NCBI GenBank assembly: GCA_024697945.1
Contig: JAILRU010000086.1
Span: 1-64,000, forward strand
Reading direction: 5' to 3'
Origin: Bacteroidaceae bacterium
Lineage (GTDB): Bacteria; Bacteroidota; Bacteroidia; Bacteroidales; Bacteroidaceae
Length of the DNA: 64,000 nucleotides
The first letter of the stretch is position 1. Each line of letters begins with the position of its first letter. The position numbers and the translations under genes were made by a program. The notes beneath the pieces are model-generated. The model saw nothing but the letters and a program-made list of their open reading frames with translations. It ran no database searches and was not told the origin of the DNA. Below are positions 5,243-57,583 of this stretch, one piece after another.

Positions 5243-5250
5243 CGAAAAAA

Positions 5251-5592: not shown

Positions 5593-5646
5593 TATCGACG
5601 AAGGCAAAGCAAGAACCGGAATGAGCATTGGGACGCTGTTTTTTTT

Positions 5647-5702
5647 ACTGTGCGTAGGAAAACTTTTTCCTCCGAAGAGAAAAAATATTTCCTGTGCGTA
5701 GC
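5647..5702 (+). repeat. TGTGCGTAG-flanked hairpin element, copy 2
   Basis: ctgtgcgtaggaaaactttttcctccgaagagaaaaaat shared exactly with the reverse complement of 30321-30393. Confidence 0.85.
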
Positions 5703-5766
5703 AAAAAAAAATGGAAGGTTAAGTGTTTTTTTGCGGCAAATTGGCTTTTAATTGGAGAATTTTTTG

Positions 5767-8304: not shown

Positions 8305-8349
8305 GTCTTTTAACTTGAAAAGTTGAAAAATCGCGCAAAATTACAAATA

Positions 8350-8380
8350 ATTCTTCATTCTTCATTCTTCATTCTTCATT
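8350..8380 (+). repeat. ATTCTTC heptamer tandem array
   Basis: attcttcattcttcattcttcattcttcatt. Confidence 0.85.
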
Positions 8381-8386
8381 TTTTTG

Positions 8387-8394
8387 TATCTTTG
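8387..8394 (+). promoter_or_regulatory. Bacteroidetes -7 element (TATCTTTG) for the addA-like gene
   Basis: ttttttgTATCTTTGtac upstream of ATG 8413. Confidence 0.6.
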
Positions 8395-8412
8395 TACGGA
8401 AAACGGCGTTTC

Positions 8413-11400
8413 ATGGACCAATTACTCACCATATACAAGGCTTCGGCTGGTTCAGGCAAGACTTTTGCACTGGCAGTGGAATACATCCTGCAACTGCTGA
8501 TGCCGAGGGCTGAACATGAGTTCGAGCATACGCTGGCCGTGACCTTCACCAACAAGGCGACGGCAGAGATGAAGGGGCGCATCCTGGAAACGCTCTACGG
8601 CCTGAAGCACAACCTGCCCGAGACGCAGCCCTATATGGAGGCAATAAAGAAAAGGACCCTCTCTGGCTCCCTGTCTGAAAGTTTCATTCGCACGCAAGCC
8701 GGCAAAGCCCTCACCGCCATTCTGCACGACTACACGCATTTCCGCGTGGAGACCATCGACTCCTTCTTCCAGAGCATCCTGCGCAACATGGCACGCGAGC
8801 TGGGACTTGCTGCCAACCTGCAGGTGGAGCTGTCGCACGACGAGGTGATTGCAAGCGCCGTAGATAGCCTGATAGAGACGATGGACAGCAAGCCCGAAGT
8901 GAAGCGATGGGTGATGGAATACGTCCGCGAGCAGTTGGACAGCGGCGACAAGTGGGACATCACAGGGCCGCTCAAGGACTTCGCAGGCAACATCTTCCGC
9001 GAGGAGTACCAGCAGCGCGACGAGACGGAGCTGGCACGCATCAGCGACACGAACGTGGTCAACGGTTTCAAGCGCAAGATGAAAGAGATTCGGGACGAAT
9101 CCAAACGGGAAGTGCAACAGGCTGTGGATGACGTGATGAGCCAGATAGGGAACTTCGACCAAATCACCTACGGCAAGAACGTCTATAAGTTCCTGATGGA
9201 TGCGAGGGAAATGAAGAGCGAAGGGCCAGGGAAGTCCGTGTTGAAGTCAAAATTCTTGGATGCTTTAGCACCAAGGCGCGATTGTAGTCGCGGAACAAAA
9301 TTATTTGACTTGCAGGCCTGCCTTACTGAATTTGCCAGCCTGTATGAAAAATGTCGGAAAGAATACCTGTCCGCAACCCTCGCGCTTCGGCATCTTGGTC
9401 CGCTGCGTCTGTTGGTTTATATAGACGAACGGGCACGCGAGATAGAGGGCGATGCCGGACGCTTCACACTCAGCTCCACCCCTGCCCTGCTCAGCAAGAT
9501 GATAGAGGACAGCGACGCGCCCTTCATCTTCGAAAAGATAGGCACGTTCATCAACTACGTGATGATAGACGAGTTCCAGGACACGAGCCGCATGCAATGG
9601 GAGAACTTCAAGAAGCTGCTCTTCGAGAAACTCGCCTCGGGAGGGAAAGGCCTTTTAGTGGGAGACATCAAGCAGAGCATCTACCGATGGCGCAACGGCG
9701 ATTGGAAGATTCTCTACGGCATAGAAGACGAGCCAGAGCTGCAACGCTTCCACATCAAGCCCGAACCCCTCGACATCAATTACCGCAGCCACCAGACAAT
9801 CATCGACTTCAACAATGCCTTCTTCCCGCCTGCCGCCAAACTGCTCGACAACATCAAGCCCGACGCTCCCATCAAGCTGAGCCAAATCTATGCAGATGTG
9901 GAGCAGAAGAAAAAGAAGGCAGACGGCAAAGGCTACGTGAGGGTCAAAATGTTTAAAGAGACGGAGGACTACGTTCAGGAAACGGTTCTCGATATGGTTG
10001 AGCAAATCAGGGAGCTGCAGGAAGTCGGGCTCGACCTCAGCGATATAGCCATTCTTGTCCGCACGAACCTGATGGCTCAGCAGCTCATCAAGGGCTTCAG
10101 TCAGTATGCTCCGGACATCCGGCTGGTCAGCGACGAAGCTTTCCTGCTCGAAGCCTCCACCAGCGTACAGATGATTGTGGCAGCAATGCGTCTGCTCATC
10201 GACAAGCAGCACACGGACGGCATCTCCGAGAAATACCTGATGCTGCACTACGGGCAGGATGTGCTTGGAAAGGCGGACACCAACATTCAGAGTGTTGCCA
10301 TGCAGGAGGCGGAACAAGCCCTGCCCGAGGAGTTCACCGCACACCGCGAGGAACTGTTGCAGCTGCCGCTATATCTCTTAGCAGAACGGCTCTGGCGCAT
10401 CTTCTCCCTGGGCAACATACATGGGGAAGATGTCTATGTGCTCACCTTCTTCGACGAATTGCAGAACCACCTCCGTACTGCCGGAGCACCCGATATTCAG
10501 ACTTTCCTCACGGCTTGGGACGATAAAATCCACCAGCGTGCCGTTCCTGGTTCCGAGGTGGCTGGCGTCCGCATCCTGACCATCCATAAATCCAAAGGGC
10601 TGGAGTTCCACACCGTCTTCCTGCCCTTCAGTCATTGGCAGATAGAGGCTGACCGCCAAGGGGACGTTCTTTGGTGCGATGCAGATGTCGCGCCCTACAA
10701 CGAACTTGGAGCACTGCCCATCTCCACCCATTCGCGAGACGTGCGCAGCTCGGTCTTTGCCTCCGATTACGAACAAGAGCACTTAGAGCGGCGCGTGGAT
10801 GCACTCGACACGCTCTATGTGGCTTTCACGCGAGCCGCCACCAACCTCTACGTGTGGGGCAAGACAAAGCCTGCCGACAAGATAAAAAACATCACGACTG
10901 CCGCAGACCTTATCTATATGACCCTCCGCAACGAGGAGAACGACAGAGAGGAAGCATGCTTCACGTATGAGATGGGGAAACCCGAAGTCTCCACTTCGCG
11001 CGGAGATTCAGAAGGGTCTGCCAATCGTCTCTCCCTGAAACACAGCATGGATGATGCCGTTGACGTGAAAGTCGTCACAAGGAACCCGATGCTCTACTTC
11101 CTGCAGAGCAACCAGACAGAGGAATATTTGGAACAAATTCAAAATTCAAAATCCAAAATCCAAAATTCCACGAAGGGGGCTTTATCCCAACGCGAGGTGG
11201 GCAAACGGATGCACGAGGTTCTCAGCAGAATCGACGACGTCGGTCAGCTGGAGGAAGTGCTCGGCAAAGCCCGCGAGGAAGGCATCGTCGGCGAGGGCGA
11301 GGACTGGGACACCATCATCAGCCACATCAAAGAGGGCTTCCAGGATCCGCTTGTCGCATCCTGGTTCCAAGCTGGAAATACGGTCTATAACGAATGCGGC

Positions 11401-11640
11401 ATTGCCAGCATGGACAAGGAGAAGGGACTGCCCGTCGTGCTGCGGCCCGACCGCGTCGTGATGAATAGGAACAACATCACCGTCATCGACTATAAGTTCG
11501 GGCATCCAAGCCGCCACTACTACGACCAGGTCAGAGACTACATGGGTCTCATGAAGCAGATGTACCCAGAACGCGACGTGAAGGGATATATTTGGTACGT
11601 GATGGGGAAAGGAGCGGTGGAAGTTAAAAGTGAAAAGTGA
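8413..11640 (+). CDS. UvrD-family helicase with C-terminal PD-(D/E)XK nuclease, AddA/RecB-like
   Basis: MDQLLTIYKASAGSGKTFALAVEYI (Walker A), VMIDEFQDTSRMQWENF, LTIHKSKGLEF, LYVAFTRA, nuclease-like VVLRPDRVVMNRNNITVIDYKFG. Confidence 0.9.
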   Translation: MDQLLTIYKASAGSGKTFALAVEYILQLLMPRAEHEFEHTLAVTFTNKATAEMKGRILETLYGLKHNLPETQPYMEAIKKRTLSGSLSESFIRTQAGKALTAILHDYTHFRVETIDSFFQSILRNMARELGLAANLQVELSHDEVIASAVDSLIETMDSKPEVKRWVMEYVREQLDSGDKWDITGPLKDFAGNIFREEYQQRDETELARISDTNVVNGFKRKMKEIRDESKREVQQAVDDVMSQIGNFDQITYGKNVYKFLMDAREMKSEGPGKSVLKSKFLDALAPRRDCSRGTKLFDLQACLTEFASLYEKCRKEYLSATLALRHLGPLRLLVYIDERAREIEGDAGRFTLSSTPALLSKMIEDSDAPFIFEKIGTFINYVMIDEFQDTSRMQWENFKKLLFEKLASGGKGLLVGDIKQSIYRWRNGDWKILYGIEDEPELQRFHIKPEPLDINYRSHQTIIDFNNAFFPPAAKLLDNIKPDAPIKLSQIYADVEQKKKKADGKGYVRVKMFKETEDYVQETVLDMVEQIRELQEVGLDLSDIAILVRTNLMAQQLIKGFSQYAPDIRLVSDEAFLLEASTSVQMIVAAMRLLIDKQHTDGISEKYLMLHYGQDVLGKADTNIQSVAMQEAEQALPEEFTAHREELLQLPLYLLAERLWRIFSLGNIHGEDVYVLTFFDELQNHLRTAGAPDIQTFLTAWDDKIHQRAVPGSEVAGVRILTIHKSKGLEFHTVFLPFSHWQIEADRQGDVLWCDADVAPYNELGALPISTHSRDVRSSVFASDYEQEHLERRVDALDTLYVAFTRAATNLYVWGKTKPADKIKNITTAADLIYMTLRNEENDREEACFTYEMGKPEVSTSRGDSEGSANRLSLKHSMDDAVDVKVVTRNPMLYFLQSNQTEEYLEQIQNSKSKIQNSTKGALSQREVGKRMHEVLSRIDDVGQLEEVLGKAREEGIVGEGEDWDTIISHIKEGFQDPLVASWFQAGNTVYNECGIASMDKEKGLPVVLRPDRVVMNRNNITVIDYKFGHPSRHYYDQVRDYMGLMKQMYPERDVKGYIWYVMGKGAVEVKSEK
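9253..9295 (+). repeat. Double-hairpin element, copy 1 (in-frame inside the addA-like gene)
   Basis: ttcttggatgctttagcaccaaggcgcgattgtagtcgcggaa; exact reverse complement of 29952-29994. Confidence 0.9.
11135..11169 (+). repeat. AAAATTC heptamer array in-frame in the addA-like gene
   Basis: aaattcaaaattcaaaatccaaaatccaaaattcc, encoding QIQNSKSKIQNS. Confidence 0.85.
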
Positions 11641-11650
11641 AAAGTGGAAA
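11620..11650 (+). repeat. AAAAGTG heptamer array spanning the addA stop and addB start
   Basis: gaagttaaaagtgaaaagtgaaaagtggaaaaa. Confidence 0.8.
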
Positions 11651-14548: not shown

Positions 14549-14572
14549 CCATAAATTTAACTAAAAACAACA

Positions 14573-16534: not shown

Positions 16535-16537
16535 CTT

Positions 16538-16590
16538 TAATTCGAAATCTCGAAATATCGACATAACGAAATATCGAAAAAATCAACAAT
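16538..16590 (+). repeat. CGAAATAT octamer array immediately upstream of the GH127 start codon
   Basis: ttcgaaatctcgaaatatcgacataacgaaatatcgaaaaaatc. Confidence 0.75.
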
Positions 16591-24540: not shown

Positions 24541-24548
24541 CAAAAAAA

Positions 24549-24580
24549 ATGAGGAATGAAGAATGAAGAATGAAGAATTA
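24549..24580 (+). repeat. GAAGAAT heptamer array
   Basis: tgaggaatgaagaatgaagaatgaagaattat. Confidence 0.85.
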
Positions 24581-24584
24581 TTTG

Positions 24585-24627: not shown

Positions 24628-26751
24628 ATGAAAAGCCTATTTGGCAAGACCATTACCGCATCTTTATTCCTGATTTGCTGCTGGGGCTGTACCGAGAACA
24701 TAGATACCTCAGCCAGATATGTCTTCACCGCCGATCGTATTATGAATTACCTGGAGAAGCACGAGGTGTATTCGGAATACGTCGAGCTCCTGCGCGTTAC
24801 TCCCATCTCGGTCAAGAGCAGCAGTACCGTGGGACAATTGCTGGCGGCACGAGGGCACTACACCGTTTTCGCTCCGACGAACGAGGCAATCCATAAGTTC
24901 CTGGAGGAGACCTGTGCCGAGGACTCTACTCTGCTGAGCGCTCCCTCATGGGATGCCTTCTCCAGCGAGCACAAGCGTGACTCCATCCGCCGCGTAATTG
25001 TCTATAACTCCATCATCGACTCGGGCGACAACGAGGAAGCCTACATGGTCAACGCTTTCCCACCCAAGACGGGTACCGAGTTCCCGCTCAACAACATGAA
25101 CGACCGCAAGCTCTCGGTACGCTACACAGGCGTCGATTCCATCTACATCAACAACACCTGTCCCGTCAGTATCCTCCAGCGGGACATCCTTGCCACCAAC
25201 GGCGTCATCCACCAGATGGAACGCGTCATTGCGCCCAAGGACGTGACTGCAGCCATGTATCTTCAGGAGATGCTTGACACCGGCAAGGAAGGCTTCCTTG
25301 TGATGGCAAAGGCCATCCAGGCATGCGGACTGATGGACACCCTCTCGAAGATTAGGGATGAAGTCTATGAAAACCTCTACCTGCGAGGCGATATCCCAGA
25401 GAAAGTGCACATGTATATCGACGGACACTTCCCCAACGGCGACAACTGGACGCCACGTCACCGCCTGTACGGCTTCACGATATTCGCAGAACCCGACGCC
25501 TTCTGGCGCGAACAGGGGCTCGACCCGCAGGCTCCCTCCGCCACCCTGCTGCCGCAACTCGTGAACTGGATTCTCACGAAAAACCAGTACGCCCGCGACG
25601 ATGTCTTTACGACTGACGACAACTACGACGACCCCACGAACCTACTCTACCAGTGGACCACCTATCACATCCTGCCCTTCCGCGCTCCGGCTGACCGACT
25701 GGTCTTCCACAGAAACGAGTACGGCTACAGTCCCAGCAAGCCCTTCCACTACACGATTCCCATGTATGAAATTTACACCACTATGGGCAAGCGCCGTCTC
25801 ATCAAGATCTACGAGAGCGCGGAATCCAACGGCATCTACTTGAACCGCTTCCCCAATCTGGATAACGGCAGAACCAGCGTCTATCACGAAATCTCATGCG
25901 ACCCTGCCAAAGTGGGCTGCTTCATAGACAGAGACCCGGACAGGGCTATCCTGAACGACATCATCAACTGCTGCATCTATCCCATCGATGCTCCGCTCTC
26001 CTACAATGATGCGACGCGCGACAACCTGGCCAAGCAGCGTCTGCGCTTCGACGGAATGACACTCTTCCCCGAGGCCATGAACAACGAAATCCGACTGAAA
26101 CTCTCGGCCGCCGAGCAGAATCAGGATGTCTATATCCCCTCCACCAACATCTACAACTACTTCGAGAACATGCAGATGAACGACCAGACCATCTTCATAT
26201 ACCTGAACGCATACGCCTACCAGTGGTGCAACATGCACAGCGACGAGATGAAGGCAAAGCGCCGTTACGAGATTACCTTCACCCTGCCGCCCGTACCAAG
26301 ACGCGGCACCTACGAATTGCGCTATGACGTCTTGCCCAACGGCGACCGAGGCATCCAGCAGTTCTACTTCGGCGACGACCGCTATCGTCTGCCAGCAGCA
26401 GGCATCCCCGTGAACCTGACGCGCGGCATAGGCAACATGAACGTCGGCTATGAAAGGGATACAGGCGACGACGACTACGACGCCGAGGTCGATAAGCGTT
26501 TGCGTAACAACGGTGTCATGAAGGGTGCCAAGAGTGTCACAGCCGACGGCAGCACGGGAGACATCGAGCGTAACCGAAACTCCAACCTGCGCTACATCAT
26601 TGTCCGCCAGACAATGGACCCCGACAAGACCTACTACATGAAAGTCAAGTCAGTGCTCGATTCCGAGGAGATGGAGTTCTACATGGACTACATGGAATAC
26701 TGTCCTAAGGAAGTCTATGACAACCCCGAGCATCCCGAGGACGTCTGGTAA
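24628..26751 (+). CDS. Fasciclin-domain lipoprotein
   Basis: lipobox LICCWGC; YTVFAPTNEAIHKFLEE; ILATNGVIHQMERVIAP. Confidence 0.85.
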   Translation: MKSLFGKTITASLFLICCWGCTENIDTSARYVFTADRIMNYLEKHEVYSEYVELLRVTPISVKSSSTVGQLLAARGHYTVFAPTNEAIHKFLEETCAEDSTLLSAPSWDAFSSEHKRDSIRRVIVYNSIIDSGDNEEAYMVNAFPPKTGTEFPLNNMNDRKLSVRYTGVDSIYINNTCPVSILQRDILATNGVIHQMERVIAPKDVTAAMYLQEMLDTGKEGFLVMAKAIQACGLMDTLSKIRDEVYENLYLRGDIPEKVHMYIDGHFPNGDNWTPRHRLYGFTIFAEPDAFWREQGLDPQAPSATLLPQLVNWILTKNQYARDDVFTTDDNYDDPTNLLYQWTTYHILPFRAPADRLVFHRNEYGYSPSKPFHYTIPMYEIYTTMGKRRLIKIYESAESNGIYLNRFPNLDNGRTSVYHEISCDPAKVGCFIDRDPDRAILNDIINCCIYPIDAPLSYNDATRDNLAKQRLRFDGMTLFPEAMNNEIRLKLSAAEQNQDVYIPSTNIYNYFENMQMNDQTIFIYLNAYAYQWCNMHSDEMKAKRRYEITFTLPPVPRRGTYELRYDVLPNGDRGIQQFYFGDDRYRLPAAGIPVNLTRGIGNMNVGYERDTGDDDYDAEVDKRLRNNGVMKGAKSVTADGSTGDIERNRNSNLRYIIVRQTMDPDKTYYMKVKSVLDSEEMEFYMDYMEYCPKEVYDNPEHPEDVW

Positions 26752-26765
26752 ACAAGATAAACGAA

Positions 26766-26804
26766 AAAGAGGGTGTGTCCATTCATTTCGACACACCCTT
26801 TTTG
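26766..26804 (+). terminator. Rho-independent terminator
   Basis: AGGGTGTGTC-cattcatttc-GACACACCCT-TTTTG. Confidence 0.9.
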
Positions 26805-26821
26805 TTACATTATATTATATT

Positions 26822-29800
26822 ATGAAAGCAAGAAGACTCCTTTTCTGCCTGTCAGTCGTCATTTGTCAGCTATCATTCAGTCCCGCCATTGCACAACAGC
26901 GACGACCTATCGACAACGAGCACCCCATGTGGATGATTCACATTGATGTGTGGAACTCTGCCGACCCGCAGAAAATCATCGACCTGATTCCTGAAGACAT
27001 ACGTCCGTATGTATGCATGAACCTCTCGCTGTCATGCCAGTTCGACACGAATACAAGCATGTACCGCATGCCGCGCAATGCCGTACGTACCTGGAAGTCA
27101 TGGGCCTCGGTTTGTCAGCAGAACGGCATGTGGTTCTCATGCCAGCCTGCTTCTGGCGGTCACACTCATATTCAGGACAATGACCTGGAGACCTTCGAGT
27201 ACTTCTTCAAGACCTATCCCAACTTCCTGGGCTGGAACTATGCCGAGCAGTTCTGGGCTTTTGGTGATGCCGGAGACCTGAGTTCGATGACAGCAGCGAA
27301 CCGTTGGGCATTGTTCGCCAACCTCGTGGAGATGTCGCACAAATACGGCGGTTTCCTTACAGTCAGCTGGTGTGGAGGCGTCTATCACATGAACACCAAT
27401 CCCATCGCCCAGCTGAAGCTCGACCCCAATTTCCTGGCTGCCTGCAAGAAATATCCCGAGGCCATCCTCTTCCTCTATAAATACACCCATTGCAGCAGTT
27501 TCTATAACAACGAGAGCGTGTGCTGGGGACCATTCATCTCGGGTCTGACAAAGAACTACGGCGTGCGCTACGACAACTGTGGATGGAACGACATGACATC
27601 CAAACTGGTAGGCTCCGGAAAATGTACCTACCCTGGCAGCGCTGGCATCGGCACGGTGATGGAACAATGCTGCGTCAACGGTGGAGCCGTATGGGATGGT
27701 CCGGAACTCATCTGGAGCGGCGAGTGCTTCCAGAACCACAACGATTCGCAGGAGGATGGCTACACCCGTCGCAACTGGGGCACCTTCCCCAACTTCAATG
27801 GCATCTGGCTTGACATGTGGCGCAGGATTATCGACGGCACCATGTACATTCCCTCACGCGAAGAGGTGGTAGCCAAGACCAAGATTGTGGTCATCAACGA
27901 CAAGGACGGTGACTATACATCATGGGACGACCTCTACAACGGCCTCTATCTGCAGACCGATCCAGGCAACCAGAAGAAAGAAAGCCAATGGAACTACGGA
28001 CAGTGGCAAAACAACCTGTGCTACTTCAAATCCACAGGCCGTTATGGCGCAATACCCATCGTGACAAACCTCTACGACGACGTTGCCAAAGCCATACCTC
28101 TCAAAGTGAGGAAGTCCAACTATTCGACACGCTGGTCATCACAGGCTAAGAAGCAATCCGACTTTAACAACCGCTATCCCGAAGTGTCCAAGGGAGGCCT
28201 CTACGTGAACCGCTACCGCAACCAATTGGTCACCTACACCCCATACACCTATCTGGGTACCAAGCAGACAGCATCTGCCGACATTCCCCTGACGTATAAC
28301 ACCTGTGATACCCTGAAGCTCATGTATGGCAAGCTCTCCGGCGGTGTCATCCGCGAGTATGCCGACCATATTGACTTCTATCTGAACAACTATCGTAACG
28401 ACACCACTACCCTACAGACCGACAAGATTGTCATCACGGGCGTTACCACCGAACCAACCTCTAACCTCACCACGCCATCTACAGGAGCACCCAGCCATCG
28501 AGCCACGCTTTCCGGCAAGTCATACGACCCGGAGACGCAGACCTTCACCGTCAACGTCAGGCATTTGGGACCGGCAATTCTGCGGATTGACTGCACAGGT
28601 GAAGCCACCGAAAGGCTGACCGATGTGCTGCCGTCTGAGGCTTTGGAACTTCCCTTGCAACCCGAGCCCTATCACGGTCCCATCATCATCGAGGCTGAGA
28701 ACATGGACAGGAAGTCAGCAGACTGCAAACTGACTCATTCCGGCTGGTGGGCACAGGACTACTATGACTTCGCAGGCATGGGATTTGTGGAGATGCAGGC
28801 CGTCAACACATGCGCCCTGCGCCATCAGTTGCAACTGGCCGAGGGAGGCAACTACCAGATTCTCATACGCTATTGCAACAGCAGCAAGGCTGGAAGGATG
28901 AAGGCCACCATCAACGGGAAATCTCAGCCCGTGTCATTCGAAAAGGTAGGCAAAAACGATTGGCAGGAAGCAGCCATCGACGTCACCCTGAATGCAGGAA
29001 ACAATGATTTCGTGCTGCTGAATACCGGCACCATCAAGATGACAATCGACCAGATTATCTACCAACCCGAAGGCTACGCCAAGGAGAAGTTCAGGGTGAC
29101 ATTGCGCGATGCAGAGTTCGGTCGTGTCGTGACCGATGCCGATTCCGTAGCAGCCGGTGAGACGGTAAACCTCACCATTATACCCGAAGATGGCTATGCC
29201 CTCAAGGCTTTGCGTGTGGTCAACTCCGTCTTCTTCACACAAGGCAAGACAATACCCTTCGAGGAGGAGTCCAGCGTCGTATCGTTCATCATGCCCGACG
29301 AGAATGTAACCATCCAGCCCATATTCTACGACATGGCTGCCACATACGAACTCGACTATACCGATGTGGCCAGTGGAGCTCTGCCTGTAGGATGGCGCAC
29401 CACCGACGGCAGTGATGTCCGCAACTATCCCTCGCAGAACGGCAGTGGTCCTCGCACCTTTGTCGGTCTGACGGGCTATCAGGGCAAGGCGCTCTATTGG
29501 CGCAACACCAGTGCCGAGTACGGTCGTCTGGCAGAATATCCCCTGACGCTGGAGTCCGGAGAGTATTCCCTCACCTTTACGATGGCAGCATGGAAGGAAA
29601 CGCCAACCTATCAGGCAAGGATACTTAGTGCCAACGGATCCGTCGTCAAGGCATCTACGACGCTGGCTGCCAAGCCAAATATTAACGGCAATAGCGCAGG
29701 AGACATCTCTACAGCCGTGCGCAACACCCTGAACTTTGAGGTGCAGAGCACCGGCAATTACATCATACAGTTCCAGGACAAAAGCACCTTTGGCGGCTTC

Positions 29801-30052
29801 CATGAGTTCCTGTTGGCAGAGTGCCGCCTGCGCAACCTGACCTTGGCAACAGACATCAGCTTAATTGATAATGGAGAATTGATAATTGATAATGAGGACA
29901 ATGCCGTCTATGATCTCTCCGGCCAACTCATTTCACCTTCTCAACCTTTCCTTCCGCGACTACAATCGCGCCTTGGTGCTAAAGCATCCAAGAACTTTTC
30001 AACTTTCCCAAGGGGAGTCTACATCATTGGCGGCAAGAAAGTGCTCCGATAG
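26822..30052 (+). CDS. Glycoside hydrolase family 98-like secreted protein with carbohydrate-binding modules and a C-terminal GxYIIxGKKVLR tail
   Basis: MWMIHIDVWNSADPQKIIDLIPEDIRPYVCMNLSLS...NFLGWNYAEQFWAF...GVRYDNCGWND; C-terminal PRGVYIIGGKKVLR. Confidence 0.85.
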   Translation: MKARRLLFCLSVVICQLSFSPAIAQQRRPIDNEHPMWMIHIDVWNSADPQKIIDLIPEDIRPYVCMNLSLSCQFDTNTSMYRMPRNAVRTWKSWASVCQQNGMWFSCQPASGGHTHIQDNDLETFEYFFKTYPNFLGWNYAEQFWAFGDAGDLSSMTAANRWALFANLVEMSHKYGGFLTVSWCGGVYHMNTNPIAQLKLDPNFLAACKKYPEAILFLYKYTHCSSFYNNESVCWGPFISGLTKNYGVRYDNCGWNDMTSKLVGSGKCTYPGSAGIGTVMEQCCVNGGAVWDGPELIWSGECFQNHNDSQEDGYTRRNWGTFPNFNGIWLDMWRRIIDGTMYIPSREEVVAKTKIVVINDKDGDYTSWDDLYNGLYLQTDPGNQKKESQWNYGQWQNNLCYFKSTGRYGAIPIVTNLYDDVAKAIPLKVRKSNYSTRWSSQAKKQSDFNNRYPEVSKGGLYVNRYRNQLVTYTPYTYLGTKQTASADIPLTYNTCDTLKLMYGKLSGGVIREYADHIDFYLNNYRNDTTTLQTDKIVITGVTTEPTSNLTTPSTGAPSHRATLSGKSYDPETQTFTVNVRHLGPAILRIDCTGEATERLTDVLPSEALELPLQPEPYHGPIIIEAENMDRKSADCKLTHSGWWAQDYYDFAGMGFVEMQAVNTCALRHQLQLAEGGNYQILIRYCNSSKAGRMKATINGKSQPVSFEKVGKNDWQEAAIDVTLNAGNNDFVLLNTGTIKMTIDQIIYQPEGYAKEKFRVTLRDAEFGRVVTDADSVAAGETVNLTIIPEDGYALKALRVVNSVFFTQGKTIPFEEESSVVSFIMPDENVTIQPIFYDMAATYELDYTDVASGALPVGWRTTDGSDVRNYPSQNGSGPRTFVGLTGYQGKALYWRNTSAEYGRLAEYPLTLESGEYSLTFTMAAWKETPTYQARILSANGSVVKASTTLAAKPNINGNSAGDISTAVRNTLNFEVQSTGNYIIQFQDKSTFGGFHEFLLAECRLRNLTLATDISLIDNGELIIDNEDNAVYDLSGQLISPSQPFLPRLQSRLGAKASKNFSTFPRGVYIIGGKKVLR
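29861..29893 (+). repeat. TTGATAA heptamer-type array in-frame in the GH98 gene
   Basis: ttaattgataatggagaattgataattgataatg, encoding LIDNGELIIDN. Confidence 0.75.
29952..29994 (-). repeat. Double-hairpin element, copy 2 (inside the GH98 gene)
   Basis: ttccgcgactacaatcgcgccttggtgctaaagcatccaagaa; exact 43-nt reverse complement of 9253-9295. Confidence 0.9.
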
Positions 30053-30274: not shown

Positions 30275-30320
30275 ATTAAAGCAGGACACATTGCATGATG
30301 GAACATGCACTTTTATTATT

Positions 30321-30393
30321 ACTACGCACGGGAATTATTTTTTCTCTTCGGAGGAAAAAGTTTTCCTACGCACAGCAGAAAAATCTGCTTCTC
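30321..30393 (-). repeat. TGTGCGTAG-flanked hairpin element, copy 3
   Basis: actacgcacgggaattattttttctcttcggaggaaaaagttttcctacgcacagcagaaaaatctgcttctc. Confidence 0.85.
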
Positions 30394-30452
30394 AATGGTG
30401 ATTTTGAGAAAAAGGATAGCTTTTTCATGCGTTTTTAGTGCTAAATTCGCAA

Positions 30453-35712: not shown

Positions 35713-35826
35713 TTATTTCTCCATGAACGCTTTTATGCGGTCGGCGACGTTCTGCTTGAAATTATTATAGAAGAAGCCGTAGTCGTGGAGGTGGTAGCTC
35801 TCGGGGCCAAAGAGGGATAAAGGTTT
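35713..35826 (-). pseudogene. Orphan C-terminal gene fragment
   Basis: minus-strand in-frame peptide SLFGPESYHLHDYGFFYNNFKQNVADRIKAFMEK* with no upstream coding sequence. Confidence 0.6.
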
Positions 35827-35827
35827 T

Positions 35828-35844
35828 GAATTTTGAATTTTGTT
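35828..35844 (+). repeat. TTTTGAA heptamer array
   Basis: gaattttgaattttgtt. Confidence 0.7.
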
Positions 35845-35885
35845 CAGCTACTATAATAGCGCCTTTGTTCTAAAGAATCAAAGAA
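35845..35885 (-). repeat. Double-hairpin element, copy 3 (diverged, intergenic)
   Basis: cagctactataatagcgcctttgttctaaagaatcaaagaa; aligns at about 29 of 35 positions to copy 2, with compensatory stem changes. Confidence 0.75.
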
Positions 35886-35943
35886 TTTTGAATTATAATA
35901 ACTTTTTAATGTTTTAACCTTTCAATTTTTCACTTTTTTGTCG

Positions 35944-38900: not shown

Positions 38901-39284
38901 ACGATAAGTTCTGCAAACAATGATTTCATCAGTGTTGATGCCAACGTTCACTTTGTTGGTACCTACGACTACATCAACTTTGATGCAGAGAACAAGAACA
39001 TCCGTTTCATGGGTGCAACAAACAAGCTCTATTATCCCTTAGTCGGAGCCAGGATTGGTGCCTTCCGTAGTTATTTCCAGCTTGAAAATGAAAGCCTTGT
39101 TAAGCAGATTGTGCTGAACATCGACGGTAAAGACGATACAGACGGAATCGTATCAATTCAAAATTCAAAAATCAAAATTCAAAATGACGAGGATTGGTAC
39201 GACCTCAGCGGAAGGAAAATGGTCAATGGCAAATTGCCTAAGGGAATCTACATCCGTGGCGGCAGGAAACAGGTCATTAAATAA
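35982..39284 (+). CDS. Secreted S8 (subtilisin-like) serine protease
   Basis: GIIDTGIDFQHIAF, DHGTHTASTAGG, GTSMATPVAAGIVALWLQ; C-terminal WYDLSGRKMVNGKLPKGIYIRGGRKQVIK. Confidence 0.93.
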   Translation: MSKLKDLLLNASRRSVVMFSMLFAANAMLWAQEMNEKFSTTTRMFLNEIREQAVPSNGSRRAQSRQMPTGMQMPKYHRLIASPDTVGGVAYIPCFIHLKNIKDLSQVRSLGVEVEETFDGLDFVTARVPVKELEALADINNVTRIKVARRMRPLTDTARQKTNTDDLLTLSPDAITGGITSMYDGTGVVLGIIDTGIDFQHIAFKDKDGNSRIKRAYVYNGNTAKEYSSISNTSPTTDEKAEDHGTHTASTAGGSSVIVNGSDVTVTDDHANATFGGMAPGADLYLAGIKNLNDTYLMNAISKMVRYANAMNKPLVVSNSWGSGWGPHDGTGELADLVGQYFGDNHPNNIILFAASNDAGHHTGNDKGGFFVQKSSASKSAPLGTIIRTNGQGGEYYAGMLASAWSSSRLNCKLYVLGNNGAIKKSWTVTQDTYSFNGLSTYYDGSLSVYIEQEDGKYHLSVSADYGLETMSYGAYNLAIEVYPATGNADVNMWGGDYSYFTNHLTTSEHTWTRGTDDMSVSDEATIPDAIAVGAYVSKTSVKNYQGTNVSYYYSGTLNDIANFSSYAISSLSPTGEVLPWITAPGSQVVSGVNHYHTASVDEYSYFHEYNSGSLVVNNTKNPYGVMEGTSMATPVAAGIVALWLQAAQSVGKDLTVNDVKEIMEKTAINDYFTTSGSNASHFGTGKIDAMAGIQYILDTPAPVTESYDLVTDVNTLEEGDKILITYTDNEDIYVLSTSQQTNNRSAKKDVKVNQDGTLRPGFTAQVITLEKDGDYYLFNVGNGYLYAGSSGSNILKTEDVADDNAKAEISISNGDATIVFQGENTRNQMCFNLNRGNPIFSCYAGSSSAALLPQIYRAVTPAPSIVLNNDGTGNAEVIMENDGKKVNATLADRTFYKDGAWNTICLPFDVTLANSPLADADVRTMSSASFENGTLTLNFTTEGEVTDIVAGTPYIIRWTSGSDIINPVFEGVTISSANNDFISVDANVHFVGTYDYINFDAENKNIRFMGATNKLYYPLVGARIGAFRSYFQLENESLVKQIVLNIDGKDDTDGIVSIQNSKIKIQNDEDWYDLSGRKMVNGKLPKGIYIRGGRKQVIK
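39154..39186 (+). repeat. AAAATTC heptamer array in-frame in the subtilase
   Basis: caattcaaaattcaaaaatcaaaattcaaaatg, encoding IQNSKIKIQN. Confidence 0.85.
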
Positions 39285-41447: not shown

Positions 41448-41449
41448 AA

Positions 41450-41828
41450 AAGTCAGTGAACCTGTAAGCCGGGTTCTGTAATCCCCAGAGGGATGCCTGT
41501 CATTTATCTTCGGACAGCGTCACCACTGTCCTCTATCGTTCTACCCTCCGGCTCGGACGGGCCGCCCTCTATCGCCGGTTTACATGAACTTTCAACTCCC
41601 GGAGTGCACAGCACCGGCATCACTGTCGGCCTGGTAAGCTCTTACCCCACCTTCTCACCCTTACCTGCATTAACATTTTCATGTTTTATCATTTAAACAT
41701 TATAACAGGCGGTTCTTTTCTTCTGCACCTACAGACCCTTGCGGACCTCTTTCTGTTAGGAAGCGGGATGCCCTTTGTTGCCCGGACTTTCCTCTACTTT
41801 TCAGCAGCGACAAGCCGGTTCACTGTCT
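41450..41828 (-). ncRNA. rnpB: RNase P RNA
   Basis: minus strand: gagacagtgaaccggcttgtcgctgctgaaaagtagaggaaagtccgggcaac...ggtaagggtgagaaggtggggtaagagcttacc...gataaatgacaggcatccc...acagaacccggcttacaggttcactgac. Confidence 0.93.
41672..41703 (-). repeat. 8-nt tandem array inside rnpB (variable stem, probably P12 region)
   Basis: minus strand, overlapping register: aatgttta aatgataa aacatgaa aatgttaa. Confidence 0.65.
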
Positions 41829-43675: not shown

Positions 43676-45019
43676 ATGAAAACATTTAAGATTGGAGGAG
43701 TTCATCCCGCAGAGAATAAACTGTCTGCTACAAGTCCTATACGCGAGGCTGCTCTGCCCAAACAAGCAGTATTCAGCATGTTCCAGCATATCGGTGCTCC
43801 TGCCAAGCCCATTGTAAAGAAAGGTGACGAGGTTAAGGTAGGTACACTGCTGGCTGAAGCAGGTGGCTTCGTCAGTGCCCCCATCTACAGCAGTGTCAGC
43901 GGCAAGGTCTCCAAGGTTGATGTTGCTCTCGATGCAAGTGGCACACGTCGCATGGCTGTCTATGTGGACGTCGAGGGCGATGAATGGGAAGAGACCATAG
44001 ACAGAAGCTCCACGCTTGTAAAACTCAGTGACCGTCCTGAACTCGACAGCAAAACTATCATAGAAAAAGTGAAGAATGCAGGCATTGTCGGAATGGGCGG
44101 TGCCACATTCCCCTGCCACGTAAAGCTCTCACCACCTCCTGGCTGCAAGGCCGAGTGCGTTATCATCAATGCTGTAGAGTGTGAGCCTTACCTCACTGCT
44201 GACCACAGACTTATGCTGGAGCACCCCGAAGAAATTCTCGTTGGTTTGCACCTCATCATGAAAGCCGTGGACGTAAAGAAAGGTTACATAGGCATTGAAA
44301 ACAACAAGCCCGATGCTATCAAACTGATGACAGAGAAAGCAAAAGGCTACGAAGGCATAGAGATTGTACCGCTCAAGGTCAAGTATCCGCAAGGCGGCGA
44401 GAAGCAGCTCATTGATGCTGTCATCGGTCGCCAAGTGCCTGCGCCTCCTGCCATTCCCATCAATGTGGGTGCTGTGGTTCAAAACGTTGGAACAGCCTTT
44501 GCCATCTATCAAGCTGTCATGAAGAACAAGCCCCTCATTGACCGCATCATTACCGTCACAGGCAAGAGTGTCAAACAGCCAAGCAATCTGCTGGCACGTC
44601 TGGGCACTCCCTTCCAACAACTGATAGACGAGTGTGGAGGTCTGCCCGAAGATACTGGTAAGATAATTGGTGGCGGTCCCATGATGGGCAAGGCTCTTCT
44701 CAGCCTCGATGTTCCCATGACAAAGGGCTCCAGCGGTTTGCTCATCATGAATGACAAGGAGGCTCAGCGTGCCACGCCTGATCCATGTATCCGTTGTGCC
44801 AAGTGTGTCAGTGCCTGTCCGATGGGACTGGAGCCCTACCTGCTCAGCAAGATGAGTGCTAAAGAGGATTGGGAAGGCGCAGAGAAGAACGACATTACCA
44901 GTTGCATCGAATGCGGCAGCTGTCAGTTCACCTGCCCCAGTCATCGTCCCTTGCTCGACATGATTCGCGTAGGCAAGACAACCGTCATGGGTATCATCAA
45001 GAGCAGAGCAGCAAAATAA
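43676..45019 (+). CDS. rnfC: Rnf complex subunit C
   Basis: GGVHPAENKLSA...GMGGATFPCHVKL...VINAVECEPYLTADHRLM...CIRCAKCVSACPMGLEP...CIECGSCQFTCPSHRPLLDMIR. Confidence 0.96.
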   Translation: MKTFKIGGVHPAENKLSATSPIREAALPKQAVFSMFQHIGAPAKPIVKKGDEVKVGTLLAEAGGFVSAPIYSSVSGKVSKVDVALDASGTRRMAVYVDVEGDEWEETIDRSSTLVKLSDRPELDSKTIIEKVKNAGIVGMGGATFPCHVKLSPPPGCKAECVIINAVECEPYLTADHRLMLEHPEEILVGLHLIMKAVDVKKGYIGIENNKPDAIKLMTEKAKGYEGIEIVPLKVKYPQGGEKQLIDAVIGRQVPAPPAIPINVGAVVQNVGTAFAIYQAVMKNKPLIDRIITVTGKSVKQPSNLLARLGTPFQQLIDECGGLPEDTGKIIGGGPMMGKALLSLDVPMTKGSSGLLIMNDKEAQRATPDPCIRCAKCVSACPMGLEPYLLSKMSAKEDWEGAEKNDITSCIECGSCQFTCPSHRPLLDMIRVGKTTVMGIIKSRAAK

Positions 45020-45049
45020 TTGATAATGGATAATTGACAATTAATAATT
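45016..45049 (+). repeat. TAATTGA heptamer array exactly spanning the rnfC stop to the rnfD start
   Basis: taattgataatggataattgacaattaataattatg. Confidence 0.85.
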
Positions 45050-49027: not shown

Positions 49028-52000
49028 ATGAAAAAGAGCATCCTTTCCCTAATTAGTCTCTGCTTTTTAACATCTCAACATCTCAATATCTCAATGTTGA
49101 AAGCAGAGCCTGTTGGCAAAGAGGCTGCGCTCTACACTGCGCAGACATACATGCTTGCTAAAGGCAAGACTGTCAATGCGACTCCCGCCCCATCCCAGAG
49201 TTCCCGAAAGAAGTCCAGCTCTGGGGAGACGGAGAATGAGCAGCCTTACTACTATGTATTCAATGCAGGAGGCAATGGTGGCTATGTTATTGTATCAGGC
49301 GATGACCGTACTGAGCCTATCCTCGGCTATGTCGAACAGGGTTCCTTCGACCCGGATAACATCCCTGAGAACATGCGTTCCTGGCTGCAATCCTATGCCG
49401 ATCAGATTAAGTACATCGTGGACAATGACATCCAGCCAGACTCTCCCCTTCTCAAGAAGCGCAACAAGGTCCAGGGCACAAAGCACAGCGTACCCGAGTT
49501 GTTGACAACTCGTTGGAACCAAGGAAGTCCATACAATATCACCTGCCCAAAGTACTACAAGGAAGAGGATGGCACCCAACACTATCCCGCTACTGGTTGT
49601 ACGGCAACAGCTATGGCACAGGTCATGTATTTCTACAGGCATCCCGATAAGACCAAGGCTGTCATTCCTGCCCATAGCAATACCTACACCTACACGGATA
49701 AGAGCGATGGTCAAAAAAAGACTGTCACAGTCACGGCAAAGGCCATACCACGCAATACCCCGATTGACTGGGATAACATGCGCGACACATATTCTTGGAA
49801 CGGCATTGAGAATGCCAATGCGCAGGACTCTGCTGTCGCCAACCTGATGCTCTACTGCGGTCAGTCAGTAAAGATGGGTTGGGGACCTTCCTCTGGTGCC
49901 AACTTCAGCGCTGAATCCTACATCAATATCTTTGGTTACGACAACAGTTGCTATGTAGGTGAACGTCGCGACTACAGCATCGACGACTGGTTCGACATGC
50001 TCTACAACGAGATAGAACAGGGTTATCCTGTCCTCTTCTCTGGTTTCTCATCCGGCGGTGGGCATGCTTTCGTGCTCGACGGCTTCGACGGCGATAATCT
50101 CTTCCACCTCAACTGGGGCTGGGGAGGCGGCAGCAACGGATGGTTCCTTGTAAGCATCCTCAACCCAGGTGACAACAGCGGCATCGGTGCAAGCAGCAGC
50201 AGCGACGGCTATAGCATGAGCCAGCGTGCACTCTTCAATCTCCGTCTGCCCGACAATGACAGAGCTGACACTTACCTCTTCATCAAAGATGTCGCTGTCA
50301 CTGGAGCCTCTTCCATCAAAGCCACATTTGAGAACAGGACGGGCGCTACCGGTAGCTTCAGTACTGGTATCGTCAAGTTGGACGATGACGGTGGCATTTC
50401 TCTTATCGGCACCGCACAATCCATCTCTAGCATGGAGAATGGCTCTTCCCAGACCAAGACCTTCAACCTCAAGAACAGACTCACCGAGGGCACTTACAGG
50501 CTTTCTCCCGCCAGCAAAGCCTCAAGGGGCAAGGTTTGGCGTGCAAAGTTCAATATGCGCAATCATTATATAGAGGCTGTAGTCGATAGCGAGGGCGCAG
50601 TCACCTTGACTCCCGTCGATATATCCAATGGCAGCTCCATCAGTATCGACACCATCACCTTCCCCAGCACTCGTATCGTAGGAAATGAACAGGAGGTAAA
50701 GGTAACCTATCGCAACAATGGCAACGAGTACTTCAAGACTATATACATGCATGTTAGCAAGACGGCCAGCAATCCTTCGAGTGACACCTATGTGAAAAGC
50801 AAGTCACAAGTCGCCGTTCGCGCAGACGAGACGGTCGATGTGTCATTCTTCTTCACGCCAGAAGAAACCGGCACTTATAAACTATGGTTCACCACATCAG
50901 AAAACGGTGGTGATATCGTCGGACGGGGCACTGTGGACATCGTCGAGGAATCGGAAGCTCCCAAGGCCAACCTCGTTGTCAGCTCCTACACCATCACTAA
51001 TCTCGTCGAAGGCATTGCATACGGCAAGCGCCTCGTTGGCAGGGCCGCCATCAGGAACAATGCAAAAGTTGACTTCAACGGCAGGATAAGACTGACAATA
51101 TGGAACCAGCCAAACAGCTCAGGTTCAGCATGGGGTGGTTCAAGCCACACCTATGATGTTGATATCATGGCCGGTAAGGTGGCTAGCGTCGAGTTTGAGT
51201 TCGATGGCCTCAGCGAGAACAACAAATACTATCTTAGTGCCTCCTATGTCAACCAAAGCGGTGAACTGGGCAACGGTGGCGTATGGGACTTAGGCGGTTG
51301 GGAAATGAAGGCTGGCTTGGCATTATGGAAGAACGATGGCTCTGTAACCGGCAAGGCATATAGCACATCCATTGGAATAACCTCCAACATCTGTGGAGTA
51401 CATGCCGATTGCAGCAAGAAAATCACCCGCATGACGCCAAACAAGAATCCAAACACCATATATGCTTTTGGCGCAAACATGGAAAGACCGGCCAGACTCG
51501 ACTCTGCCAACGTCGTAATCGGCAGTCATGCTGACCGCATCAATTTTGTCAATGACCAGCCTTATTACATACCTGTCACCTTCGATGCCGACAGTGCTTT
51601 CTTCACCTACACCTTCCCCGAGACAGAGGATGGTACGAAGTGGCATGCCTTTACGATGCCCTTCGAGGTTGACTCCATCTTCGTGGATGATATCCCCACC
51701 AGCCTCGACGATTCTCTCAAGCACTTCTGGATATACGAATTTGCTGCCCAGGGCAACGACGGTGAGATAATCTTTGCGCCTGCAACAGTGCTGCGGGGTG
51801 CCACGCCTTATATCATTGCAGCCGATTCCTACATGGCAGGGCGTTCTATTGTCTTCCGCTCACTCGACGTGCCGTTCTACAAGGCAGGCTCCAACAAGAT
51901 GGTCATTACCTCGTCGGACTACAAGTTCCACGGAAACACATTCGCACCCAAGCTCAAGGACTTCTACATGCTGAATGAAGATGGAACAGCTTTCGAGTAT

Positions 52001-52285
52001 GTTTCGGTGGCTAAGTTAATCTCAGCCGGGGCCTCCTACTTCACCACCTCCCTCCCCGAGGAACTGCGTCTGCCGAGCATCGTCCTGCCTAAGATACCTA
52101 CGGTACAGGTAATTCTTGGCGACATCAATGGCGACACTAAAGTAGATATTGCTGATGCCGTGAGCGTCCTGAACATCATGGCAGCAGGAGAGTTTAACAT
52201 AATTGCTGACATCAATGGCGACGGACAAATTGACATCGCCGACTTTGTCAGCATCCTTAACATCATGGCAGGAGATACAAAATGA
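49028..52285 (+). CDS. Secreted C10 (streptopain-like) cysteine protease with C-terminal dockerin-like EF-hand pair
   Basis: YPATGCTATAMAQVM; GGGHAFVLDGFDGDNLFHLNWGWGGGSNGWF; C-terminal ILGDINGDTKVDIADAVSVLNIMAAGEFNIIADINGDGQIDIADFVSILNIMAG. Confidence 0.93.
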   Translation: MKKSILSLISLCFLTSQHLNISMLKAEPVGKEAALYTAQTYMLAKGKTVNATPAPSQSSRKKSSSGETENEQPYYYVFNAGGNGGYVIVSGDDRTEPILGYVEQGSFDPDNIPENMRSWLQSYADQIKYIVDNDIQPDSPLLKKRNKVQGTKHSVPELLTTRWNQGSPYNITCPKYYKEEDGTQHYPATGCTATAMAQVMYFYRHPDKTKAVIPAHSNTYTYTDKSDGQKKTVTVTAKAIPRNTPIDWDNMRDTYSWNGIENANAQDSAVANLMLYCGQSVKMGWGPSSGANFSAESYINIFGYDNSCYVGERRDYSIDDWFDMLYNEIEQGYPVLFSGFSSGGGHAFVLDGFDGDNLFHLNWGWGGGSNGWFLVSILNPGDNSGIGASSSSDGYSMSQRALFNLRLPDNDRADTYLFIKDVAVTGASSIKATFENRTGATGSFSTGIVKLDDDGGISLIGTAQSISSMENGSSQTKTFNLKNRLTEGTYRLSPASKASRGKVWRAKFNMRNHYIEAVVDSEGAVTLTPVDISNGSSISIDTITFPSTRIVGNEQEVKVTYRNNGNEYFKTIYMHVSKTASNPSSDTYVKSKSQVAVRADETVDVSFFFTPEETGTYKLWFTTSENGGDIVGRGTVDIVEESEAPKANLVVSSYTITNLVEGIAYGKRLVGRAAIRNNAKVDFNGRIRLTIWNQPNSSGSAWGGSSHTYDVDIMAGKVASVEFEFDGLSENNKYYLSASYVNQSGELGNGGVWDLGGWEMKAGLALWKNDGSVTGKAYSTSIGITSNICGVHADCSKKITRMTPNKNPNTIYAFGANMERPARLDSANVVIGSHADRINFVNDQPYYIPVTFDADSAFFTYTFPETEDGTKWHAFTMPFEVDSIFVDDIPTSLDDSLKHFWIYEFAAQGNDGEIIFAPATVLRGATPYIIAADSYMAGRSIVFRSLDVPFYKAGSNKMVITSSDYKFHGNTFAPKLKDFYMLNEDGTAFEYVSVAKLISAGASYFTTSLPEELRLPSIVLPKIPTVQVILGDINGDTKVDIADAVSVLNIMAAGEFNIIADINGDGQIDIADFVSILNIMAGDTK
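49069..49099 (+). repeat. 8-nt array in the signal-peptide coding region of the first C10 paralogue
   Basis: aacatctc aacatctc aatatctc aatgttg. Confidence 0.8.
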
Positions 52286-55200
52286 AACGTTTAACATTAT
52301 CATTATCGACGCTCTGCTTCTTAGCATTTCTACCTTGCAACTATGCAACATTGAGAGCAGAGTCTGTCGGCGAGCAGGCTGCACTCTACACAGCCCAGTC
52401 ATTCATGCTTGCCAAGGGCAAGACAATTGAAACCTCCCCCGTCACCTCCCAAGGTGGGAGCCATCGCAGGAAAGCAGCCTCGACGGAGGAGGAGACTCCC
52501 TATTATTATGTATTCAATGTAGGAGGCGATGGTGGCTACGTCATCGTTTCCGGCGACGACCGCACAGAGCCTATCCTCGGTTACGTTGACCAGGGTACAT
52601 TCGACCCCGACAACATTCCCGAGAACATGAGTTCCTGGCTGCAGTTCTATGCCGACCAGATAAAGTACATCAAGGACAATGACATCCAGCCGGATTCTCC
52701 TATTCTCAAGAAACGTAATAAGGTGAGCGGCACAAAGCACAGCATACCCGAGCTGCTGACCACACGCTGGAACCAGGGAAATCCATACAACATCACCTGT
52801 CCCAAGTACTACAAGGGCGACGGCTCACAGCACTACCCTGCTGCTGGCTGTGTGGCAACTGCAATGGCACAGGTCGTTTACTACTACAAGTTCCCAGAAA
52901 AGACAAAGGCTGTCATCCCTGCCCATTCCAATACATATAAATTGGACGACGGTACCGAGAAGACAGTCACAGTAAAGGCCGTACCGCGCGGCACAACCAT
53001 TGATTGGGAGAACATGCGCGACACCTATTCCTGGAATGGCTTTGACAATGCCAATGCACAGGACACAGCTGTTGCCAATCTGATGCTCTACTGCGGTCAG
53101 TCTGTCAAGATGGGCTGGGGAGCCTCATCGGGCGCTACCACTTCAAGGGCTCGCGATGTCTTCGTCAATTACTTTGGCTACAATTCGAGTGCCTATTGGG
53201 GAGGTCGTGGAAGCTATTCGATAGATGAATGGTTCGAGATGCTCTACGACGAGATGGAAGCCGGTTATCCGGTCCTCTACTGCGGTCATTCTTCGGGCGG
53301 CGGCCATGCCTTCGTAATCGACGGCTTCGATGGCGACAACCTGTTCCACGTCAATTGGGGCTGGGGCGGCGGCAGCAACGGCTGGTTCCTCATAGGCATC
53401 CTCAATCCTGGCGACAACAGCGGTATGGGAGCCAGCAGCAGCAGCGACGGCTATAGCATGAGCCAAGGTGCGCTCTTCAATCTTCGTACCACCGCGCCTC
53501 CCAAGCAAGACACCCATCTTTATATCGGCGATGTCTCGATAGCCAACCAAACCATCAAGGCAACGTTCACGAACAAGACGGGTTCCACCGGCGCCTTCAA
53601 CACAGGTATTGTCATGCTCGATGAGGATGGCTCGCTTGCGCTTGTAGGAAACAAACAAACCATTTCCAGCATGGAAAACGGCGCGACTCAATCTAAGGCC
53701 TTCTCCCTCAGGAAGAAGCTTCCCGAAGGCACCTACAGGCTTTCTCCCGCCAGCAAGTCTTCGAGGGGTGAGGTATGGCATCCAAAATATAACATGCAGA
53801 GCCAGTACATCGAGGCTGTCGTCGATGCTGACAGTACCGTCACCCTAACTCCCATCAACATCTCCGTCGGGAATCAGGTCAGCATCAGCATCGACACCAT
53901 CACCTTCCCGGGCACCCGCATCATGAAGAAGGAGCAGGAGGTGAAGGTGAAGTTCCGCAACGATGGTGCAGAGTACTTCAAGACAGTCTATTTCTTTGCC
54001 AGCCAGACAAACAAGAAGGTCTATACCGAAAGCAAGTCGATGGTTGCCATTCGTACAGGCGAGACGGCAGAGGTGTCGTACTTCTTCACGCCGGACACGA
54101 CTGGCATCTACAACCTCTGGTTCTGCAACGACGACAAGGGCAACGGCGTAATAGGTCAAGGCACGATGGAAGTCATCGACGAAGCAAGTGCGGTCAAGGC
54201 CAACCTCGCTGTCTCGTCCTATACCATCAACAATCTCGTCGAAGGCATTGCTTACGGCAAACGCCTGATTGGCAGGGCAACCATCAAGAACAATGCTAAA
54301 GAGGACTACCACGGAAGCGTCAAGTTCCAGCTCTGGAATCAGAAGGTTGGAAACAACACGGCGTACAGCGGTCCCACCCGCACATACCATATAGATGTCG
54401 TTGCGGGTAAGACTGCCAGTGTGGAATTTGAGTTCGATGGCCTGAGCGAAGGCTATTACTACCGCTTCAAGGTATCGTATGGCAATCAGGACGGCACATT
54501 GTCCAACGGCGGTCTTTGGGACAACAGATGGGAGATGAAGGCCGGTTTGCTTACCTGGAAGACCGACGGAACCGTAGCTGGCCAGGCATATCGTGCCACG
54601 TTCTCGGCACCCACGACTGCCTGTGGCGTGTATGCCGACTGCGGTAAGATCACACGTTTGCGTCCTAACGCGAATCCCAATACCATCTATGCCTTTGCAC
54701 CCGACATGAAGATACCGGCCAGCCTCGATTCATCCAATGTCGTAAGCGGCAACCACGCAAAGCGCATCAATCTGGTCAACGACAAGCCCTACTACATTCC
54801 AACCACCTTCGATGCCGATAGCGCTTCCTTCACCTACACCTTCCCCGAGACAGAGGACGGTACGAAGTGGCACGCCCTTACGATGCCCTTCGAGTCGGAC
54901 TCCATCTGTGTCGATAGCATCCCCGTCTCGCTCTCCGACACGCTCAAGCATTTCTGGATATACGAGTTCACAGCCGAGGACAGCAAGGGGAACATCGTCT
55001 TCAAGCCAGTCACCAAGCTACGTGGAGGAACACCCTACATCATTGCAGCCGATTCCTACATGGCGGGGCGCTCCATCGTCTTCCATGCGACCGACGTATC
55101 CTTCTTCAAGACGGGTACGGACAAGATGCTTGTTTCATCGCCAGGCTACAAGTTCCACGGCAACACCCATGCCCCGAGGCTCAAGGACTGCTACTTGCTG

Positions 55201-57332: not shown

Positions 57333-57480
57333 TAATCTTTCCCGCTAAGGATAGTATTCCTTCCGTCATAGGATTACTATTCCTTCAGCCATAGGATTAC
57401 TATTCCTTCAGCCGAAGGATTACTATTCCTTCCCGCATAGGATTACTATTCCTTCAGCCATAGGAATAGCCCGCTACCGC
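57327..57480. repeat. 22/23-nt period array (array D), AGGATTACTATTCCTTCAGCCAT family, about 7 units
   Basis: GGATTA at 57371, 57394, 57417, 57440 and GGAATA at 57463 (23-nt); GGATAG at 57327 and 57349 (22-nt). Confidence 0.9.
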
Positions 57481-57544
57481 AGAAGGGACACTATGCTATA
57501 GTTCACGGGACATCAAAATACGATTATTATGCAGTTTCACCCTC

Positions 57545-57576
57545 ATTTTGAATCTTGAATTTTGAATTTTGAATTA
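57545..57576 (+). repeat. TTTTGAA heptamer array
   Basis: attttgaatcttgaattttgaattttgaatta. Confidence 0.85.
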
Positions 57577-57583
57577 TATGTCG

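Follow-up and report, generated by a model that had tools for sequence, protein, structure and literature searches.

The 64,000-nucleotide stretch analyzed here, referred to as the window, covers positions 1 to 64,000 of contig JAILRU010000086.1 from a Bacteroidaceae bacterium (assembly GCA_024697945.1) and contains three copies of a short unit composed of two adjacent hairpins (Table 1). Copies 1 and 2 have exactly the same sequence and lie inside protein-coding genes, and the third, denoted as the window copy, is intergenic and sits within an array of TTTTGAA heptamers. Hairpin 1 of the window copy reads CTTTG-A-TTCT-TT-AGAA-CAAAG, hairpin 2 reads GCTA-TTATAG-TAGC, and the 3' end is TGAA. 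Both hairpins are present as the original prediction had described them, and the exact extent of the unit could be fixed at 41 nt on the minus strand. The window copy is identical to copies 1 and 2 at 33 of 41 positions. Six of the eight differing bases constitute three stem pairs that changed from G:C to T:A on both sides, and these previously claimed paired changes are real with respect to both exact copies. The remaining two are a G to A change in the hairpin-2 loop and one base, not mentioned in the original prediction, whose change disrupts the outermost C:G pair of hairpin 2. Matches to the hairpin-1 sequence were absent from 100 shuffles, which, together with the many family matches in the same genome, excludes a chance origin of the window copy. 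Removal of the unit leaves four perfect TTTTGAA heptamers in register, indicating that the heptamers are a target array interrupted by the element. Their presence on both sides had been noticed correctly, but they lie outside the unit. The flank is shared with the copies L013 and L084, and the window copy belongs to a duplicated larger unit of ~110 nt, comprising the array, the element, and the flank.

Table 1. Coordinates of the double-hairpin copies, their flanks and host genes, and a structured RNA gene in the window
Feature	Position	Strand	Remarks
41-nt double-hairpin unit (window copy)	35843..35883	-	Covariance-model match of 59.9 bits, E 2.7e-15; sequence CTTTGATTCTTTAGAACAAAGGCGCTATTATAGTAGCTGAA
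(TTTTGAA)n heptamer array, left part (plus strand)	35822..35842	.	In register with 35884-35895
(TTTTGAA)n heptamer array, right part (plus strand)	35884..35895	.	
AT-rich flank	35884..35942	-	Common to the window copy, L013, and L084
Copy 1	9255..9295	+	Inside the AddA-like UvrD-helicase/nuclease gene; in-frame reading FLDALAPRRDCSRG
Copy 2	29952..29992	-	Near the 3' end of the secreted GH98 glycosidase gene; opposite-strand reading LPRLQSRLGAKASK
AddA-like gene, host of copy 1	8323..11640	+	Also contains heptamer array 11134-11170, read IQNSKSKIQNS
GH98 gene, host of copy 2	26717..30052	+	Also contains heptamer array 29870-29894, read SLIDNGELIIDN
Class A RNase P RNA gene	41449-41826	-	Rfam RF00010, 220 bits

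The window copy is not simply a third copy, as had been proposed, but one member of a large family. At least 43 BLAST matches to the element were found in the same 3.68-Mb draft genome, and a covariance model trained on 27 distinct copies yielded 93 matches there, 81 of them with E<1e-3. Among 120 relatives, 15 genomes (including the own genome of the window) carry the element; all belong to the same genus and contain 1 to 56 copies each under the stricter filters of this search. A degenerate pattern run over 85,462 species genomes identified 88 stretches, nearly all in Bacteroidales metagenome-assembled genomes (MAGs), mostly from the ruminant gut, and the exact 44-mer of the window copy had no match in the same 85,462 genomes. 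The plasmid and phage collections searched gave no match to the element. A copy was observed at positions 1201-1225 of L262; the contig in question is 12.9 kb long and was classified as viral (IMGVR_UViG_3300028887_000746). One identical 41-mer is present in eight different contexts, indicating that the copied entity is the unit and not its surroundings. A search of the openly accessible literature for double hairpins or heptamer arrays of this kind in Bacteroidales returned no description of the family.

The ends of the unit emerge from the stacked flanks of 119 non-redundant copies, 65 from the own genome and 54 from relatives. TT lies immediately to the left of the unit in 115 of the 119, and no other flank position exceeds about 0.51 bit, as compared with a mean of 1.46 bits within the unit, which spans 41–43 nt, starts with C, and ends with GGAR. 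Exact deletion of the unit regains a period-7 array in 20 of the 65 copies of the own genome, versus 0–3 when the cut is moved by 1–4 bases. The arrays of the relatives differ in period, and there the same test succeeds for 2 copies at the true cut and for up to 4 at other offsets; the sharp register peak is confined to the own genome. TT sites within heptamer arrays account for 1.6% of all such sites in the window and 4.2% of the intergenic ones, and the arrays make up 0.7% of the sequence. At locus L133 of the Prevotellaceae MAG UBA4336, two oppositely oriented copies lie within CCCTCCCTT^GTAGGGAGGG palindromes, each in the loop. In the orthologous locus L173 of a buffalo-rumen MAG, exactly 42 nt are missing at both positions, with neither duplication nor deletion. 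These exact empty sites, free of target duplication, establish a true insertion. A miniature inverted-repeat transposable element was rejected as a classification, given the lack of duplication at the empty sites and ends that show at most TTC/GAA complementarity. The palindromes represent a second family, CCCTCCCTT..AAGGGAGGG, observed in genes and spacers of the relatives (L133 ~990-1180, L173 ~4425-4560, L224 ~5370-5400, and the AddA linker of L138), whose loop hosts double-hairpin units.

The units are also nested in one another. Eight loci of the own genome hold a variant unit (CTTACACG...) inside hairpin 2, whose loop it enters at TT^GTAG or TT^ATAG, and several copies carry a 27-nt repeat, TTCCGCCTGCGCCTGAGCTTTGCGAAG, within the loop of hairpin 1 (L011 2659-2726, L081, L084, L094-L096, and L041). 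The latter repeat also occurs by itself (L006). Insertion favors TT steps, both those in AT-rich heptamer arrays and those in the hairpin loops of other palindromic repeats, further copies of the unit among them. Hairpin loops and repeat arrays are also places of polymerase slippage, and this coincidence favors the main rival explanation, host-driven template switching or repair. According to this explanation, template switching combined with hairpin- or array-promoted repair copies the unit to TT sites while one arm mends the other, with no dedicated enzyme and no selection. Sharp ends, and identical 41-mers that retain fixed ends and TT across contexts, are unexpected from random switching.

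Insertion extends into coding sequences. Nineteen of the 119 copies sit at least 30 codons inside open reading frames of at least 150 amino acids, in several reading frames and on both strands. The in-frame peptide of copy 1 falls in a linker that differs between species, and the short repeats in the linkers of AddA and AddB (L138, L252-L260) change from one related species to the next, namely GGAGCAA arrays, palindromes, and TTCACTC arrays. Compared in this way, the linkers resemble landing sites that tolerate repeats. An exact empty site for copy 1 was sought by synteny, and none could be defined because the AddA linker around it varies too much. The relatives are collinear with the window over 5886-18566 only; copy 2 and the window copy lie outside that span.

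The original prediction took the paired stem changes as support for the view that the folded form is acted upon by selection or by a replicative mechanism, and proposed a larger alignment as the decisive comparison. In 27 copies, 96.8% of the stem cells pair and 8 of the 14 pairs changed on both sides; none of 500 shuffles equaled the observed two-sided changes, and sliding the partners reduces pairing to 25–46%. The set of 87 distinct copies comprises 1218 stem cells, of which 1154 are Watson-Crick, and individual positions show as many as four pair types, although the counts in both sets are taken over related copies and hence are not independent events. The covariation thus persists, and is strong, in both larger sets, in line with the proposed action on the fold. 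The implication that the fold is one of RNA is not supported. Among the non-Watson-Crick stem cells of the 87 copies, G:T occurs 12 times, A:C 16 times, and other combinations 36 times. Since G:T is no commoner than A:C, folded DNA, or a copying process acting on it, is a better reading than RNA, and the stem statistics point to a fold that acts as DNA. Two stable hairpins with covariation could also denote a structured regulatory RNA or a transcription terminator under RNA selection. This explanation is already contradicted by the lack of wobble preference and by copies that occur in both orientations, in several reading frames inside genes, and nested in each other, and we regard it as extremely improbable. 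Membership in a known RNA family was likewise rejected, as no element match exceeds an Rfam gathering score and the RNase P RNA is the sole Rfam find in the window.

The stems bear on template switching in both directions. This process is known to give rise to hairpin stems and to keep them intact (PMC8794818), G:T mismatches are as rare as A:C mismatches, and the window copy gained a two-sided change after the split from its sister L013 (lineage L013, L084), all of which would suit it. Conversely, an intermediate with only one stem side changed exists (L096), and the hairpin-1 loops are TT, CT, TC, CC, AC, or TA, but never AA. The absence of inverted loops, the hallmark of template switching, argues mildly against this process as the main source of the paired changes. 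The lack of a mobilizer common to the carriers, described below, adds to its support; overall, we consider it rather unlikely.

On the basis of sequence comparison, the unit boundaries, the TT rule, the empty sites, the nesting, the covariation, the patchy multi-copy spread within one genus, and the in-gene insertion are demonstrated, and the unit is very probably a mobile DNA element with the ends given above. The favored explanation, which we hold with about even confidence, is that the window copy belongs to a mobile, non-autonomous DNA repeat that moves as a folded single strand by means of a trans-acting nuclease. The moving DNA would be single-stranded and folded, with its left cut at TT| and its right cut at GGAR|. 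The unit is inserted cleanly 3' of TT, which borders it on the left without being part of it, and the joining would be performed by a putative HUH-type or functionally equivalent nuclease acting in trans. Spread may be restricted to copies still able to fold, and such a filter would explain the paired stem changes. Single-strand transposition appears the most likely mode of movement because the clean insertion, the retained left target, the fixed right end, and the obligatory hairpins match the logic of IS200/IS605 elements (PMC6006769). The single-strand enzyme model as such is more tentative, and we place it somewhat below even chances.

Several observations weigh against this explanation. 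The target comprises only 2 nt, and the copies contain no GTAG-type guide at the hairpin foot. The original prediction had envisaged a single-strand transposase, and no such enzyme could be tied to the element. The own genome encodes one Y1_Tnp protein with no element copy beside its gene, and Y1_Tnp was undetected in the copy-rich carriers G005, G020, G036, G052, and G071. RVT_1, represented by one protein in the own genome, was undetected in the copy-rich carriers G005, G020, and G036, and also in G027, G035, G013, and G008. In nine carriers, no IS110 transposase was found, nor was Y2_Tnp, in a search run without a positive control; a relaxase exceeded the cut-off in only two carriers. The genes recurring beside the copies are ordinary host genes, with no recurring mobilizer among them. 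Y1, Y2, relaxase, IS110, and RVT_1 were accordingly rejected as shared movers, none being common to the carriers. The carrier genomes are incomplete draft MAGs in which an enzyme may have been missed, and these absences are therefore soft.

The same searches inform two further alternatives. In RNA-mediated copying, as proposed for the double-hairpin elements of Allomyces, a unit transcript would be reverse transcribed into new sites. The lack of target-site duplication supports it by the argument used for Allomyces (PMC2800124), as does the RVT_1 protein of the own genome. The seven carriers with undetected RVT_1, the absence of an Rfam match at the element, and mismatches indicating that neither strand evolves like an RNA stem render it improbable. 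Alternatively, the unit could belong to a family of repetitive extragenic palindromic (REP) sequences or REPINs moved by a resident REP-associated tyrosine transposase (RAYT, a Y1 transposase). The small, high-copy hairpins, the clean insertion, and the Y1_Tnp protein of the own genome fit this possibility, and "atypical secondary structures" have been reported for RAYT subclass 2.6 of Bacteroidetes (PMC6006769). We nevertheless give it little credence. A conserved GT[AG]G foot is absent; GTAG is confined to some hairpin-2 loops, and many copies have TTAG, TAAT, or other sequences instead. No repeat-flanked RAYT was found in the copy-rich genomes, which are incomplete MAGs, several copy-rich carriers have no detected Y1_Tnp, and the Y1 gene of the own genome has no adjoining copy.

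In form, the family comes nearest to the double-hairpin elements of mitochondria, the GC clusters of yeast, and the bacterial REP and Rickettsia palindromic repeats. Like REP/REPIN sequences moved by RAYT (TnpA_REP), the units are short, palindromic, present in high copy number, and probably moved as a folded single strand; unlike them, they are often inside genes and retain a TT target. Rickettsia palindromic elements (RPEs; PMC3733652) are likewise palindromic repeats found both in spacers and, in frame, inside genes. Their sequence is different, whereas the element here is a 41-nt double hairpin nested in arrays and loops, with ends of C... and ...GGAR, and lacks the RPE end tag CGTC. The ends of IS200/IS605 elements (PMC6006769) share subterminal hairpins, a left target that lies outside the element and is retained, and the absence of duplication, and the element agrees with them in that insertion is clean and lies 3' of a short target that is kept. 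The element differs in having no cis transposase gene, a 2-nt rather than a 4-nt target, and a total length of 41 nt. The GC clusters of yeast mitochondria, e.g., GC42 (PMC4478555), are likewise hairpin-forming, GC-rich units of ~42 nt in AT-rich DNA that merge and shuffle; a putative AG target-site duplication exists there and none in the element. The double-hairpin elements (DHEs) of the mitochondria of Allomyces and related fungi and the repetitive hairpin elements (RHEs) of sponge mitochondria (PMC2800124) resemble the family in their two adjacent short hairpins, their patchy copy number among close species, their insertion into genes and spacers, and the absence of target-site duplication, and the DHEs also in being mobile. 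The element here resides on a bacterial chromosome and has a defined TT^ target, a preference for heptamer arrays and hairpin loops, and an in-frame protein reading, and the likeness to DHEs is one of form only. A bacterial counterpart of the mitochondrial elements, namely a minimal, selfish 41-nt DNA spreading in folded single-stranded form into hairpin loops and heptamer arrays through host replication or repair, with no dedicated transposase, and creating new in-frame linkers in proteins, is conceivable, though we judge it unlikely.

Other repeats are dispersed in the window. AT-rich heptamer arrays occur at 5247-5284, 8347-8384, 11134-11170, 13007-13043, 14079-14116, 24547-24581, 29870-29894, 39154-39186, 45016-45042, and 57545-57578. 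Their types include TTCAAAA, TTGATAA, and TTCATTC, among others, and many are in genes and in frame (IQNSKSKIQNS, LSIINYQLSI). Tandem repeats of 23 bp (TAGTAATCCTTCGACGGTAGGGA type) lie at 5452-5586 and 57329-57489, in opposite orientation and 52 kb apart. A repeat of 73-92 bp with an inner palindrome, CTGTGCGTAG/CTACGCACAG, is found in three spacers (10-82, 5620-5711, and 30312-30403; 75-86% alike). The region 49228-55512 holds a duplicated large gene in two tandem blocks, ~3.24 kb apart and 70-84% alike.

How very short, gene-less palindromic repeats such as REPs, RPEs, and mitochondrial hairpin elements spread is a decades-old question. In the present family, the ends are sharp, the target rule is simple, the empty sites are exact, relatives contain tens of copies, and covariation is strong; those repeats usually lack such features. 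It makes selection on a DNA fold, template switching, and RNA copying testable against one another. The family also shows a route by which repeats keep rewriting linkers in conserved proteins, AddA and AddB among them.
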